Both the position numbers and the translations under genes were made by a program. A stretch of 33,572 nucleotides of DNA from Pyrolobus sp. Its GTDB lineage: Archaea > Thermoproteota > Thermoprotei_A > Sulfolobales > Pyrodictiaceae. Of the stretch, positions 9,633 to 19,191 are shown piece by piece. Location: assembly GCA_015521195.1 (NCBI GenBank), contig WAOO01000092.1:1-33572 (forward strand), written 5' to 3'. A model generated the notes under the pieces. It was not told the origin of the DNA. It saw nothing but the letters and a program-made list of their open reading frames with translations, and searched no databases. Position 1 is the first letter of the stretch. The number at the start of each line of letters is the position of its first letter.

Positions 9633-9655
9633 CTCGCATGTAGGGGGTGGGAGCC

Positions 9656-11080
9656 ATGGCCTCGAGACCGAGCCCGGTTGTGGAGGAGATACTCAAGACG
9701 GTTAAGCAGAGGGTCAAGTGGAGTGGTTACGATAAGCAGGCTGTAGAGAAGGCAGTGTCGAAGTTCGTAGCGGCAATCGACGTTGTAAGGCTGCACTACC
9801 TCGAGAACTGTGTAGGATGCGCTGCGTGCGCACCGGCATGCCCATACTACTACGTGGACGAGCACTACTCGCCTGTCAACAAGGCCGAGTATAGCCGCGG
9901 CGTCTACAGGAAGAAGCTGACGTTTGCAGGCAGGATACTGGGGCCTTTGGTCGGCGCGTGGATACCGAAGAACGAGAAGGACCTTGACAGAGTGGTGGAG
10001 CTAGTGTACAGGTGTACCAACTGCGGCCACTGCTACTATGCCTGCCCCTTTGGCATCGACAGCGGCTCGCTGGTACAAGGTCTCCTGAAGATAATAGCAA
10101 CCTATAGTGGCAGAGCCCCGACGATAATCGACGTCTTCGCCGAGCTAGAGTACAGGGAAGCCTACCTGGAGATAGAGGGGTTGATGATGCCGTGGAACAT
10201 GGTGTTGAAGAAGGCCGAGGAGGCCATCGGTAAGAGCCTACCGCTCGACAAGAAGGGTGCCGAGGTACTCCTGCTGCCGTGGCTTACCGACGCGATGTTC
10301 TACCCGGGCGGCGTCATAGGAGCGATCAAGGCGTTCGAAGCGGCAGGGCTCGACTATACGCTGCCCAGCAGGCCGTGGGCAGTAAGGCCTCCGATAGGCG
10401 TCGTGGTTGGACGCATGGAGCTGGCGAAGGCTACGCTGGAGAGGATAGTGAGACGCGCCGAGGAGCTTGGCGTCAAGAGGGTTGTGCTGCTTGACGGTGG
10501 CTTCCCATACCCGTGGATGAGGTGGGAGATGCCGAAGCTGCTAGGCCGCAGGCCGAACTTCCAGGTGGTGCACTTCGTCGAGATAGCGTTGGAGCTGGTC
10601 AAGCAGGGTAGGCTGCCCATCGAGCCCGACGACACGCCGGTCACCTGGCACGATCCATGCCAGCTCGGCAGGCGCGGCGGTGTGACAGAGGAGCCGTATG
10701 AGCTGCTAAGGAGGGTGGCTAGGAACTTCAGGCCGTTGAAGCACCGTGGCGTTCACAGCATATGCTGTGGTGGTGGCGGTGGCATCGGCTGCATGAACCC
10801 AGAGATGATAGCAGAGATGGCGAAGCTGATGGGCCTAGAGCCAGATGCTCTTTACGACGGCGAGAAGGAGAAGAAGTTCATAGAGGAGACGACGAAGGCC
10901 TGGTCTATAGCGGTCAAGAGGAAGATTGACGAGATACGCGAGTCGGGAGCCAAGATTGTCGTGACGGCCTGCCCGGTGTGCATACACTCGATATCCGGTG
11001 GAGCCAAGCTCTACAACCTACCCGTTGACGTGAAGCACATCGCAGAGTATATCGGCGAGAGGGTGAAGCTCAAGAGGTGA
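9656..11080 (+). CDS. isp2: Isp2/HdrD-like iron-sulfur protein of hydrogenase complex
   Basis: Two 4Fe-4S motifs (CVGCAACAPACP, CTNCGHCYYACP) and CCG domains (DPCQLGR...ICCGGGGG; ACPVC). Confidence 0.88.
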   Translation: MASRPSPVVEEILKTVKQRVKWSGYDKQAVEKAVSKFVAAIDVVRLHYLENCVGCAACAPACPYYYVDEHYSPVNKAEYSRGVYRKKLTFAGRILGPLVGAWIPKNEKDLDRVVELVYRCTNCGHCYYACPFGIDSGSLVQGLLKIIATYSGRAPTIIDVFAELEYREAYLEIEGLMMPWNMVLKKAEEAIGKSLPLDKKGAEVLLLPWLTDAMFYPGGVIGAIKAFEAAGLDYTLPSRPWAVRPPIGVVVGRMELAKATLERIVRRAEELGVKRVVLLDGGFPYPWMRWEMPKLLGRRPNFQVVHFVEIALELVKQGRLPIEPDDTPVTWHDPCQLGRRGGVTEEPYELLRRVARNFRPLKHRGVHSICCGGGGGIGCMNPEMIAEMAKLMGLEPDALYDGEKEKKFIEETTKAWSIAVKRKIDEIRESGAKIVVTACPVCIHSISGGAKLYNLPVDVKHIAEYIGERVKLKR

Positions 11081-11190: not shown

Positions 11191-13137
11191 ATGGTGCGCG
11201 AGATAAGGCTCCACATAGACCCAATCACGAGGATCGAGGGTCACCTGGGTCTAAGGATATACGTTGACGCCGACACCAGGAAGCCTACGGGTAAAGTCTG
11301 GAGCTTCGTAACCATGTTCAGAGGCTTCGAGATATTCGGCATCGGCAGGCCGCCGGAGGACCTGCCGCACGTAACCAGCAGGATATGTGGCGTCTGCGGA
11401 GCCAGCCACGCCAACGCTGACGTCCTCGCGGCGGACATGGTGTACGGCGTCTCGCCGAAGCCTATGGGCGTAGTGCTGAGGAACATGGCATACGCGATGA
11501 CAGACCACATCTATGACCACACGATAATCCTCGGCATGCTGGAGGGCCCGGACTATAGCACAGCGATAGTCAAGAAGCTGACTCCGAAGGTCTACGAGGC
11601 TGCCAAGCAGGTGCGTGCAGAGAACCGTGACATACACGGGTTCACCACAATAGCCGATATAATGGATGCGCTAAACCCGGTCATCGGCAAGGTCTGGCAG
11701 CTGGCGGTCAAGTTCCAGAGGCTGGCCCGCGAAGCAGGCGTACTGATATACGGCAGGCACAGCCACCCCTCGACGCTGATACCCGGAGGCATTGGCACTG
11801 ATCTGACAAACGCTCAGTACCTGTTTACAGCCTACACGTTCAGGTTGAGCAAGCTGACGGCGTGGGTCAAGTGGTTCTACGCGCTATTCGAGGACCTCTT
11901 CCGCTTCTACGAGGAGAACGTCACCCTGCCTGGAGACCTGCCATACACGTGCAACGGCCTCAGCTACGCTCCCACCGAGAGACCCAAGGAGTGCCCTGGG
12001 ATGGAGACGACGGTCCTGGCGGCCGCCAGCGGCGGTATCGGCGACGACCCAGGCGTCTACGGAGAGCAGATGCCAGAGTATAACCCGGAGGAGTTCTACA
12101 GGAGTATCGATAAGGCTGCCATGGCCAGGCTTCTGAAGCCAGGCGTCATCCTGAGAGGCCAGAGGGTCACCAGCAGCCTAACCGACTATCAGGTCAGCAT
12201 CGCGGAGTACGTCGACTATGCCTTCTACAAGGACTGGCCCATGCCAGACTTCGGCACCGAGACCGACCCGAAGGGCAACAAGCTACTCTGGGGCCACTGC
12301 CACGCCAAGTACCACCCGTGGAACAAGATAACCGTGCCAGACATCCGCGGCAGGAGCGTCAAGTTCGAGGAGGGCGGCAAGTACAGCTGGGTGACGCACG
12401 TAAGGCTAGTGTGGAAGGACGGTACGATAACCCCGTTCGAGGTCGGCCCCTACGCTAGGCTGCTAGTGACAAGCACCTACGCCTATAGCTTCGGCGCGCT
12501 AGGCGCCAGCTTCAAGAGCGACGGCAACGGCAAGCTTACCGTCGAGCTTCCAAGGGCCTGCGCCGAGGGCCTGCCCAGCAGCGTCTGCGACCCGGTAACC
12601 TTCGAGTGGAAGGTGCCGCCCTTCAGCAGCACAATCTACAGGCTGTGGGCCAGGGCCTTCAACCTGCTGATAGACGTTGTGATAGCCTGGAAGAGCGTCG
12701 AGGAGGGCCTGTCGCTGCTCGCACAGGGCAAGAAGGAGACGTCCAGGCCGTGGAAGGTGCCAAGCGGCATCACACGCGGCTTCGGCTTCGTAGAGGCTCC
12801 GAGAGGCACCGTGAGGCACTGGATGGTCCAGCAGGGTGGCCGCGCCCTCAACATCCAGATACACGCGCCGACAACCGGCAACGTCTCGCCACACGATAAC
12901 CTCAAGACCTGCGGTAAGGCAGGCAAGACGGTCTACAGCCCGTTCGAGCAGGCAGCCCTCAACAGCTGGGTGACCGAGGAGCTGCAGCCTGAAGAGTGGC
13001 AGGGTCTAGACTTCGTGAGGGCCATCAGGAGCTTCGACCCGTGCCTAGCGTGTGCAGCCCACATAGCGATATACAAGAACGGCAAGGAGGTCAAGAAGAT
13101 AAAGAAGGTTATAACCAACGTGCATTACAGCTTCTAA
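11191..13137 (+). CDS. hynL: [NiFe] hydrogenase large subunit
   Basis: HIDPITRIEGHL; L1 motif RICGVCGASHANA; L2 motif DPCLACAAH followed by a 24-aa cleavable tail. Confidence 0.96.
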   Translation: MVREIRLHIDPITRIEGHLGLRIYVDADTRKPTGKVWSFVTMFRGFEIFGIGRPPEDLPHVTSRICGVCGASHANADVLAADMVYGVSPKPMGVVLRNMAYAMTDHIYDHTIILGMLEGPDYSTAIVKKLTPKVYEAAKQVRAENRDIHGFTTIADIMDALNPVIGKVWQLAVKFQRLAREAGVLIYGRHSHPSTLIPGGIGTDLTNAQYLFTAYTFRLSKLTAWVKWFYALFEDLFRFYEENVTLPGDLPYTCNGLSYAPTERPKECPGMETTVLAAASGGIGDDPGVYGEQMPEYNPEEFYRSIDKAAMARLLKPGVILRGQRVTSSLTDYQVSIAEYVDYAFYKDWPMPDFGTETDPKGNKLLWGHCHAKYHPWNKITVPDIRGRSVKFEEGGKYSWVTHVRLVWKDGTITPFEVGPYARLLVTSTYAYSFGALGASFKSDGNGKLTVELPRACAEGLPSSVCDPVTFEWKVPPFSSTIYRLWARAFNLLIDVVIAWKSVEEGLSLLAQGKKETSRPWKVPSGITRGFGFVEAPRGTVRHWMVQQGGRALNIQIHAPTTGNVSPHDNLKTCGKAGKTVYSPFEQAALNSWVTEELQPEEWQGLDFVRAIRSFDPCLACAAHIAIYKNGKEVKKIKKVITNVHYSF

Positions 13138-13199
13138 CCCCGACCTGCATTTTTAACCTTAACGGCTCGTGCGCCGCACCATTCAAGACCCCGTCTAGT

Positions 13200-13390
13200 T
13201 CTCCCTCCTCCCGGGGCTGTGACCCGCCGCCCCACGGGCGCCGGGGCGGGCGTAGGGTTTCCGCCCGTCTCGGCGTACAGTCTCCGGGTTCACCCGTGGG
13301 GCGGCAGGGGAGCCCCGCCGCCCCTGTGAAGAGCCCGTTGTATGCTGAGGTTTTGTGATGATGGATGGCTGGCTTAGGGGCGGAAACCAT
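13200..13390 (+). ncRNA. Candidate structured RNA / 5' leader upstream of GltD-like gene
   Basis: 13-bp perfect helix 13226-13238/13293-13305; 11-bp perfect helix 13256-13266/13378-13388; competing hairpin 13298-13305/13317-13324. Confidence 0.4.
13320..13381 (+). ncRNA. Possible C/D-box-like sRNA (degenerate)
   Basis: Terminal stem GCCCCT/AGGGGC; GTGAAGA (C-like, 13326), CTGA (D', 13345), GTGATGA (C', 13355), CTTA (D-like, 13373), with 12-, 6- and 11-nt spacings. Confidence 0.25.
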
Positions 13391-13431
13391 CTTACTAGGG
13401 TTGGGTTGCGGCTAGCCGTAGGGTTAGTGTT

Positions 13432-14472
13432 TTGAGATTCCTGGGTTGTAGGCTTGAGGATGTCCCCGTGGCTAGGCGCGGGTCTGTTGTCATCATAGGT
13501 GCTGGTCCTGCGGGGCTGGGGGCTGCTGGTAGACTAGTGTGCCGTGGTCACGAGGTTGTGGTTGTCGATAAGATGCCTGAGCCTGGCGGCCTCCTGATAT
13601 TCGGTATACCCGAGTTTAGGATTCCGAAGGATAGGGTTCGTGCAGGTGTAGCTGAGCTTCGCGAGGCGGGTGTGGAGTTTAAGACCGGTATTGTTGTCGG
13701 CAAGGATGTTAGCCTGGAGAACTTGATACGCGAGTTTGATGCTGTGTTGATTGCTACGGGTACCTGGGAGACTAGGAGGCTTAGGATACCGGGGGCTGAG
13801 CTGGAGGGTGTGTACGGGGCGCTCGAGTACATAGTGAACTACTTCCTCGCCAAGTATGGGTATAGGCCGTTGGAGAGTGTGCCTCCCCTCGGCGAGAGGA
13901 GTGTAGTGGTGGGTGGCGGCTATACCGCGGTGGATGCGTGCCACGTTGCCCTGGAGAGGGGCGTTAGGGAGGTGCACCTGGTCTACCGTAGGACTAGGAG
14001 GGAGGCTCCAGCTGGCCCCGAGGAGTTCAAGAGGCTTGAGGAGAGGGGTGTTGTGGTGCACGAGCTGGTCTCTCCGAAGAGGTATATCGAGTGCAGCGGG
14101 CGTAGGGGCCGCGTCTGCGGCGTCGAGCTGATACGCATGGAGCTAGGGGAGCCCGATGAGACCGGGAGGCCTAGGCCGATACCGGTGCCTGGCAGCGAAT
14201 TCATACTAGAGACGGACTCGGTGCTCGAGGCTGTCGGGCTTAGACCCACTCCGCCCTTCGACCCGGGTACAGACCATGGCATAAGGTTGAACAGGGATGG
14301 CACCATTTGGACCGACGAGTTCTTCAGGACTAGTAGGAGGAAGGTCTTCGCAGCCGGGGATGTGAGACACGGGCCTTCAAAGATAGGCCCAGCGTTGAAG
14401 AGCGGCATCGACGCCTCACAGTGGATACATAAGTATCTGGTTGGCGAGCTGAAGGGCTGGCCGGGGCTGTGA
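13432..14472 (+). CDS. GltD-like FAD/NAD(P)-binding oxidoreductase (glutamate synthase small-subunit type)
   Basis: VVIIGAGPAGLGAAG (FAD), SVVVGGGYTAVDACHVALERG...VYRRTRREAP (NADP), VFAAGDVRHGPSKIGPALKSG. Confidence 0.88.
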   Translation: MRFLGCRLEDVPVARRGSVVIIGAGPAGLGAAGRLVCRGHEVVVVDKMPEPGGLLIFGIPEFRIPKDRVRAGVAELREAGVEFKTGIVVGKDVSLENLIREFDAVLIATGTWETRRLRIPGAELEGVYGALEYIVNYFLAKYGYRPLESVPPLGERSVVVGGGYTAVDACHVALERGVREVHLVYRRTRREAPAGPEEFKRLEERGVVVHELVSPKRYIECSGRRGRVCGVELIRMELGEPDETGRPRPIPVPGSEFILETDSVLEAVGLRPTPPFDPGTDHGIRLNRDGTIWTDEFFRTSRRKVFAAGDVRHGPSKIGPALKSGIDASQWIHKYLVGELKGWPGL

Positions 14473-14524
14473 GGACAAGTCGGTGCGCCGACGGGTGATG
14501 TGAACGGCAAAATCCGAGCCCGCA

Positions 14525-19092: not shown

Positions 19093-19191
19093 CCCCAGGA
19101 GGCCTATAGGAGGCGGGTCGAAGAGCCTGGGTAAAAACGGGATGACCGGTTTAGCCTACGCTGAGCCGTGATGAGGGGCTTTCCAGGGACC

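Follow-up and report, generated by a model that had tools for sequence, protein, structure and literature searches.

A probable small RNA gene of Pyrolobus joining a kink-turn hairpin to an sR24-like C/D-box module

Maturation from longer transcripts, tRNA-C/D dicistrons among them, is common for archaeal C/D sRNAs (PMC7994747), and most kink-turns can be stabilised by proteins of the L7Ae family (PMC6298567). The described RNAs to which the present locus was compared are the C/D-box sRNA sR24 (RF01135), the tRNA-C/D dicistrons, the RNAs sRkB and sRkC of Pyrococcus abyssi (PMC3124441) and the archaeal H/ACA guide RNAs (PMC7991803).

The locus is a gap between two genes in the window, by which is meant the whole stretch of 33,572 nucleotides of Pyrolobus sp. 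DNA that was analysed (contig C92 of a 1.24-Mb assembly in 134 contigs, ~78% complete). On its 5' side lies the large subunit of a nickel-dependent hydrogenase, hynL (PF00374), and on its 3' side a pyridine-nucleotide-disulphide oxidoreductase of the GltD-like type (PF07992), with its start codon at 13432. The gap is 294 nt long (13138-13431), as given in a preliminary description of this DNA. Comparison with the single other Pyrolobus genome used (G001; one contig, 1,843,267 bp) resolved two abutting modules on the + strand, a hairpin at 13212-13317 and a probable C/D-box RNA at 13318-13383. The gap most likely encodes a small RNA, in which a long kinked hairpin is joined directly to a ribosome-methylation guide.

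The C/D module has the same D guide as sR24 (GGAUGGCUGG), the same order of boxes and a D' guide that can be aligned with that of sR24, but the D' guide itself is different, box D is CUUA, the terminal stem is a 7-bp GC stem and a hairpin is fused upstream. As in the tRNA-C/D dicistrons (PMC7994747), the C/D sRNA is immediately preceded by a stable folded RNA that could set where it starts; here, however, a kink-turn hairpin takes the place of the tRNA, and no tRNA was found at that position. A GC-rich intergenic RNA with a kink-turn also recalls sRkB and sRkC (PMC3124441), which bind L7Ae as the present RNA would be expected to do. Those RNAs differ, as far as the cited parts of that report describe them, in being longer, repetitive and specific to P. 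abyssi, and no fused C/D guide appears in those parts. Archaeal H/ACA guide RNAs (PMC7991803) likewise combine a kink-turn and an internal loop in one hairpin, but there the kink-turn is expected 5-6 nt above the pocket and here it is basal, 16 bp from the loop. An H/ACA sRNA was considered and rejected: the loop is one-sided where a two-sided pocket is expected, and no ACA follows the lower stem, the bases after the 13-bp helix being AGG or UGG.

The adjacency and order of hynL and the GltD-like gene are kept in G001 (79% and 83% identity), and the gap region is 69% identical between the two species. In other genera of the family the relatives of hynL and gltD are not adjacent and the loci around them gave no hairpin match. 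The protein relatives of the GltD-like gene, from bacteria and distant archaea, were uninformative for the leader. A two-species model of the hairpin was searched against 197 genomes of the order (E <= 0.5) and 229 of the class (E <= 0.01), both with stricter filters; no further hairpin was found in either set, the 2 of 229 that carry it both being Pyrolobus. A match of 20.2 bits in genome G011 was treated as chance, as it is antisense within a conserved coding gene, a sugar-phosphate isomerase-like ORF by sequence. The composite RNA has so far been seen solely in Pyrolobus, and the comparative evidence consists of two sequences.

Other features of the window include a gene for a 4Fe-4S/CCG-domain protein, heterodisulfide-reductase-like by its domains, just 5' of the hydrogenase large subunit (9647-11080, +), and genes for tRNA-Ser (GCT; 499-586, +) and tRNA-Glu (CTC; 1488-1565, -).

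The kink-turn hairpin

The elements of the hairpin are as follows.

13212-13317, + strand: kink-turn hairpin, whole (z -5.10; matched by the G001-only model; 34/34 pairs kept)
13212-13217, + strand: 5' strand of the C-stem, CGGGGC, paired with GCCCCG at 13312-13317; -1b:-1n is C:G
13218-13222, + strand: kink-turn bulge UGU (13218-13220) with G1b and A2b (13221-13222), from the sequence; GAU and GA in G001
13223-13225, + strand: NC-stem CCC, paired with GGG at 13307-13309; 3b:3n is C:G here and G:C in G001
13226-13238, + strand: 5' strand of the 13-bp helix, partner 13293-13305; 3/13 pairs changed on both sides
13239-13275, + strand: inner stem-loop, 14 bp (13239-13252/13262-13275) with loop 13253-13261, from the MFE fold and the covariance-model alignment
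13276-13292, + strand: one-sided 3' internal loop UACAGUCUCCGGGUUCA, 17 nt; 21 nt in G001, with YACARUC common to both
13293-13305, + strand: 3' strand of the 13-bp helix, from the MFE fold and the pair alignment
13306-13317, + strand: 3' side of the kink-turn, from the sequence: bulged A13306, GGG, G2n and A1n (13310-13311), C-stem GCCCCG (13312-13317)

The perfect 13-bp helix reported in the preliminary description (GCCGCCCCACGGG, 13226-13238, with CCCGTGGGGCGGC, 13293-13305) is present. The comparison of folding energies with shuffled sequences that had been proposed there came out clearly for the hairpin, which at z = -5.10 lies far beyond chance (0/200 shuffles), and its G001 counterpart gave z = -5.67 (0/200). 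Without protein its folding energy is -77 kcal/mol. The 211-nt region as a whole showed a modest excess of stability over dinucleotide shuffles (z = -1.93, 5/200 as good), with the opposite strand folding equally well; the signal is concentrated in 13212-13317, not in the whole 211 nt. The C/D module 13318-13383 gave z = -2.83.

The MFE fold of the G001 sequence contains the C-stem, the bulge GAU, the tandem GA, three pairs, a one-base 3' bulge, the long helix, the inner stem and the one-sided loop. As MAFFT alone misaligned the hairpin, the alignment was instead obtained from a one-species covariance model and then re-modelled. A covariance model built from the G001 hairpin sequence alone recovered the one in the window with a score of 56.8 bits (E 1.7e-12), and all modelled pairs in it were standard. 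In the comparison with this relative every one of the 34 pairs of the model holds in both species, with both sides changed in 6 and one side in two, counts that lean towards the modelled structure because the alignment was fitted to it and that give limited covariation because just two sequences exist. The six double changes comprise one in the C-stem, that at 3b:3n, three in the 13-bp helix and one inner pair. The C-stem, UGGGCC/GGCCCG in G001, has in addition one C-G/U-G change. Pair conservation as good was seen in 9/500 shuffles, and sliding the partners by 1-3 columns reduced the paired cells from 100% to 42-52%.

The base of the hairpin (13212-13225/13306-13317) has a 3-nt bulge, tandem GA/AG, a C-stem and an NC-stem, and G001 has the same with compensated stems, its 3' side reading U-GGC-GA-GGCCCG. 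Of the bulge (UGU in the window, GAU in G001) the two species share the last U, and they also share both GA steps. With bulge-GA-GA and -1b:-1n = C:G in both, the motif is, as read from its sequence, a standard kink-turn. The G-U pairs and the GA/GA core indicate that the RNA strand is +. Complementarity of the one-sided loop to rRNA was no better than chance (p 0.44). A protein-coding reading of the hairpin was judged unlikely, several of the gaps between the species not being multiples of three.

The probable C/D-box module and its predicted 23S rRNA targets

The elements of the second module, which the preliminary description had not recognised, are listed below.

13318-13383, + strand: probable C/D-box sRNA, sR24 paralogue (sub-cut-off match to Rfam sR24; aligned with sR24 of both genomes; z -2.83)
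13318-13324 and 13377-13383, + strand: terminal stem CCGCCCC/GGGGCGG, 7 bp; GCCCC/GGGGC in G001
13326-13332, + strand: box C GUGAAGA, one change from RUGAUGA; same in G001
13333-13344, + strand: D' guide GCCCGUUGUAUG, with predicted pairing to 23S rRNA ~1237-1247 (G001 numbering)
13345-13348, + strand: box D' CUGA, consensus
13355-13361, + strand: box C' GUGAUGA, consensus
13362-13372, + strand: D guide UGGAUGGCUGG, common to sR24, with predicted pairing to 23S rRNA CAGCCAUCC, ~1264-1272
13373-13376, + strand: box D CUUA, which departs from the consensus and is the same in G001

The layout is CCGCCCC-U-GUGAAGA ... CUGA ... GUGAUGA-UGGAUGGCUGG-CUUA-GGGGCGG, and in both species it begins with zero spacer after the C-stem of the hairpin. 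The terminal stem juxtaposes boxes C and D. Box C' matches RUGAUGA and box C departs from it by one change, as it does in the sR24 of G001. Box D' has the expected CUGA, but box D does not: with CUUA in both species A2b is opposite U instead of G, so that the C/D kink-turn lacks one of its two sheared GA pairs. This lowers the claim of the module to membership of the C/D-box class. The true sR24 of G001 has GUGAAGA as box C and CAGA as box D, which indicates that box sequences in Pyrolobus depart from the consensus.

The Rfam scan proposed earlier gave a match to sR24, at 19.2 bits in the window and 23 bits in G001, both under the cut-off of 36. True sR24 is found elsewhere in both genomes above the cut-off (39.8 and 42.6 bits), the orthologues being L187 507-560 (G000:C16:906-959, -) and L186 402-455 (G001:558901-558954, -). 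A 16-nt block with the D guide, GGATGGCTGGCTKAGG, occurs in each genome at module 2 and at sR24 only (at most one mismatch; 0 in a reversed-pattern control), and the four RNAs can be aligned over their whole length. Given two copies of the block per genome and this full-length alignment, module 2 is at the sequence level a paralogue of sR24, not its orthologue. No copy of the guide/stem block was present in the viral contigs searched. Between the species, whose identity in the region is 69%, boxes and D guide have hardly changed.

Target searches used the rRNA of G001, 23S rRNA not having been found in the MAG of the window. The guides of sR24 have two pairing sites close together in 23S rRNA, and 9 consecutive pairs can form between the D-guide site and the D guide of module 2. 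Against shuffles the D guide alone gave p 0.59 for its 11 nt (no better than chance) and 0.03 for the common 9 nt. The D' guide differs between the species, and among all rRNA both versions are jointly best at one 23S site, 26 nt upstream of the D target. As p is 0.0115 for falling <=100 nt from the D target and 0.28 over all rRNA, targeting of this site by D' is suggestive only.

Two other candidates were noted in the window. A second probable C/D-box sRNA, at 14465-14519 (+; G001 66521-66575, -), overlaps the GltD-like stop codon and has boxes GUGAGGA/CCGA/GUGAUGU/CCGA and a sub-threshold match to sR14 (19.7 bits); G001 has nearly the same two guides, for which the best matches in rRNA are in 23S at ~476 and 498, 22 nt from each other (p 0.018 and 0.053). 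A sub-threshold match to sR60 at 19138-19184 (+; 36.2 bits, cut-off 50, E 2.6e-5) is probably another unannotated C/D sRNA.

Competing helices and rival explanations

The preliminary description had favoured a ligand-responsive switch in the leader of the GltD-like gene, working by strand exchange between copies of GCCGCCCC and by an 11-bp helix, with a stable ncRNA as the alternative. The helices on which this rested do exist: GGGGCGGC (13298-13305) is able to pair over 8 bp with GCCGCCCC at 13317-13324 (ALT1), a perfect 11-bp helix joins GGTTTCCGCCC (13256-13266) to GGGCGGAAACC (13378-13388) (ALT2), and the local hairpin GGGCGG (13244-13249)/CCGCCC (13261-13266) is present. The RNA also lies upstream of the GltD-like gene in both species, and in the window the pairing probability of ALT1 and ALT2 is ~0.2 at 37 C. 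At 70-95 C, however, it falls to <=0.003 and the dominant fold is the hairpin with the C/D stem. As a mutually exclusive layout the two helices are not conserved: in G001 both have probability 0.000 at 37 and 70 C, and at 95 C, where much of the fold melts in the model and the C/D stem itself has 0.13, ALT1 alone reaches 0.10 (ALT2 0.002). The second arm is accounted for by the C/D terminal stem, being the 5' strand of that stem (partner 13377-13383) plus one base of the C-stem. G001 lacks GGTTT/AAACC, the outer half of the 11-bp helix; these bases occupy the position 5' of the GltD-like gene at which one would expect a promoter. The start codon at 13432 is not covered by any arm, and Rfam gave no riboswitch match in the region. 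A switch is therefore considered extremely improbable. The stable ncRNA, by contrast, held up, with a conserved structure carrying compensatory changes and a C/D sRNA module, and the view that it resembles neither RNase P RNA nor SRP RNA was borne out, as Rfam gave no match to either up to E = 5 over 13050-13600. If the two-module reading is correct, the locus also shows that switch-like competing helices can arise merely from two adjoining GC-rich stable RNAs.

The main rival to the favoured reading is that the hairpin is simply removed on maturation. The two modules would then be independent neighbours, the first a free-standing structured ncRNA or a hairpin in the 3' UTR of the hydrogenase operon and the second a C/D sRNA matured on its own, with nothing but a processing site at the junction. 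Archaeal C/D sRNAs do often adjoin other genes or directly follow tRNAs, maturing from longer transcripts, and the flanks of one C/D gene of S. acidocaldarius could be changed without effect on maturation (PMC7994747). The zero-nt spacing of the stems in both species, despite diverged flanks, argues without proof for a joined molecule, and this rival is thought rather doubtful. An L7Ae-controlled leader or trailer, with the kink-turn hairpin exerting cis control over the GltD-like or hydrogenase mRNA and the C/D-like part only a passenger, has precedents in archaeal L7Ae, which controls its own mRNA by way of a kink-turn in the leader (PMC6298567), and, in the cited parts of the Pyrococcus report, in sRkB, an RNA with two kink-turns that extends to the start codon downstream (PMC3124441); gene order is also conserved on both sides. 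Here, though, the kink-turn lies >100 nt from the gltD-like start with the C/D RNA between, nothing was found to pair with the start, and a hairpin so stable without protein (-77 kcal/mol) is unlike the weak l7ae leaders (PMC6298567), which makes cis control unlikely. Boxes C and D that depart from the consensus, a weak complementarity to 23S rRNA and the continued presence of sR24 proper could suggest that the C/D part is a decaying, functionless duplicate of sR24 and the hairpin a remnant or a chance GC-rich inverted repeat. The near-constancy of the boxes and D guide between the species and the retention of 34/34 hairpin pairs speak against decay, which is held to be very unlikely.

The proposed gene and its significance

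The reading favoured, with moderate confidence, is a + strand small-RNA gene of two stable modules without a linker: an sR24-derived C/D sRNA that guides methylation of 23S rRNA, and a kink-turn hairpin at its 5' side. It would be transcribed with the hydrogenase operon or from an upstream TATA-like sequence. Candidates for the latter are TTTTTAA at ~13151 in the window and TTTTTACAAGTTATAA in G001; their spacing to the hairpin differs, and no clear promoter was found at a fixed distance in both species. L7Ae would bind both the basal kink-turn and the C/D core, and the C/D sRNA would direct fibrillarin to 2'-O-methylate 23S rRNA, the D guide reading the site of sR24 and the D' guide a site 26 nt upstream. 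The sRNA may also chaperone folding of the targeted 23S region. With the two GC stems abutting, the hairpin may stack on the C/D terminal stem, and at very high temperature it could shield or define the 5' end of the guide RNA. Its role would most likely be that of an L7Ae-binding 5' module for stability or processing. More tentatively, the whole could be a genus-specific composite L7Ae RNA, in which the basal kink-turn hairpin with its long one-sided loop is not a discarded leader but a functional 5' domain of the C/D guide, acting as a heat-proof clamp or a second interaction domain; this is regarded as possible, not probable.

If the proposal is correct, an unannotated structured RNA would be added to one of the most heat-tolerant archaeal genera, namely a C/D guide RNA with a kink-turn domain at its 5' side. 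It would then offer a testable case of the stabilisation and maturation of a guide RNA near the upper temperature limit of life.
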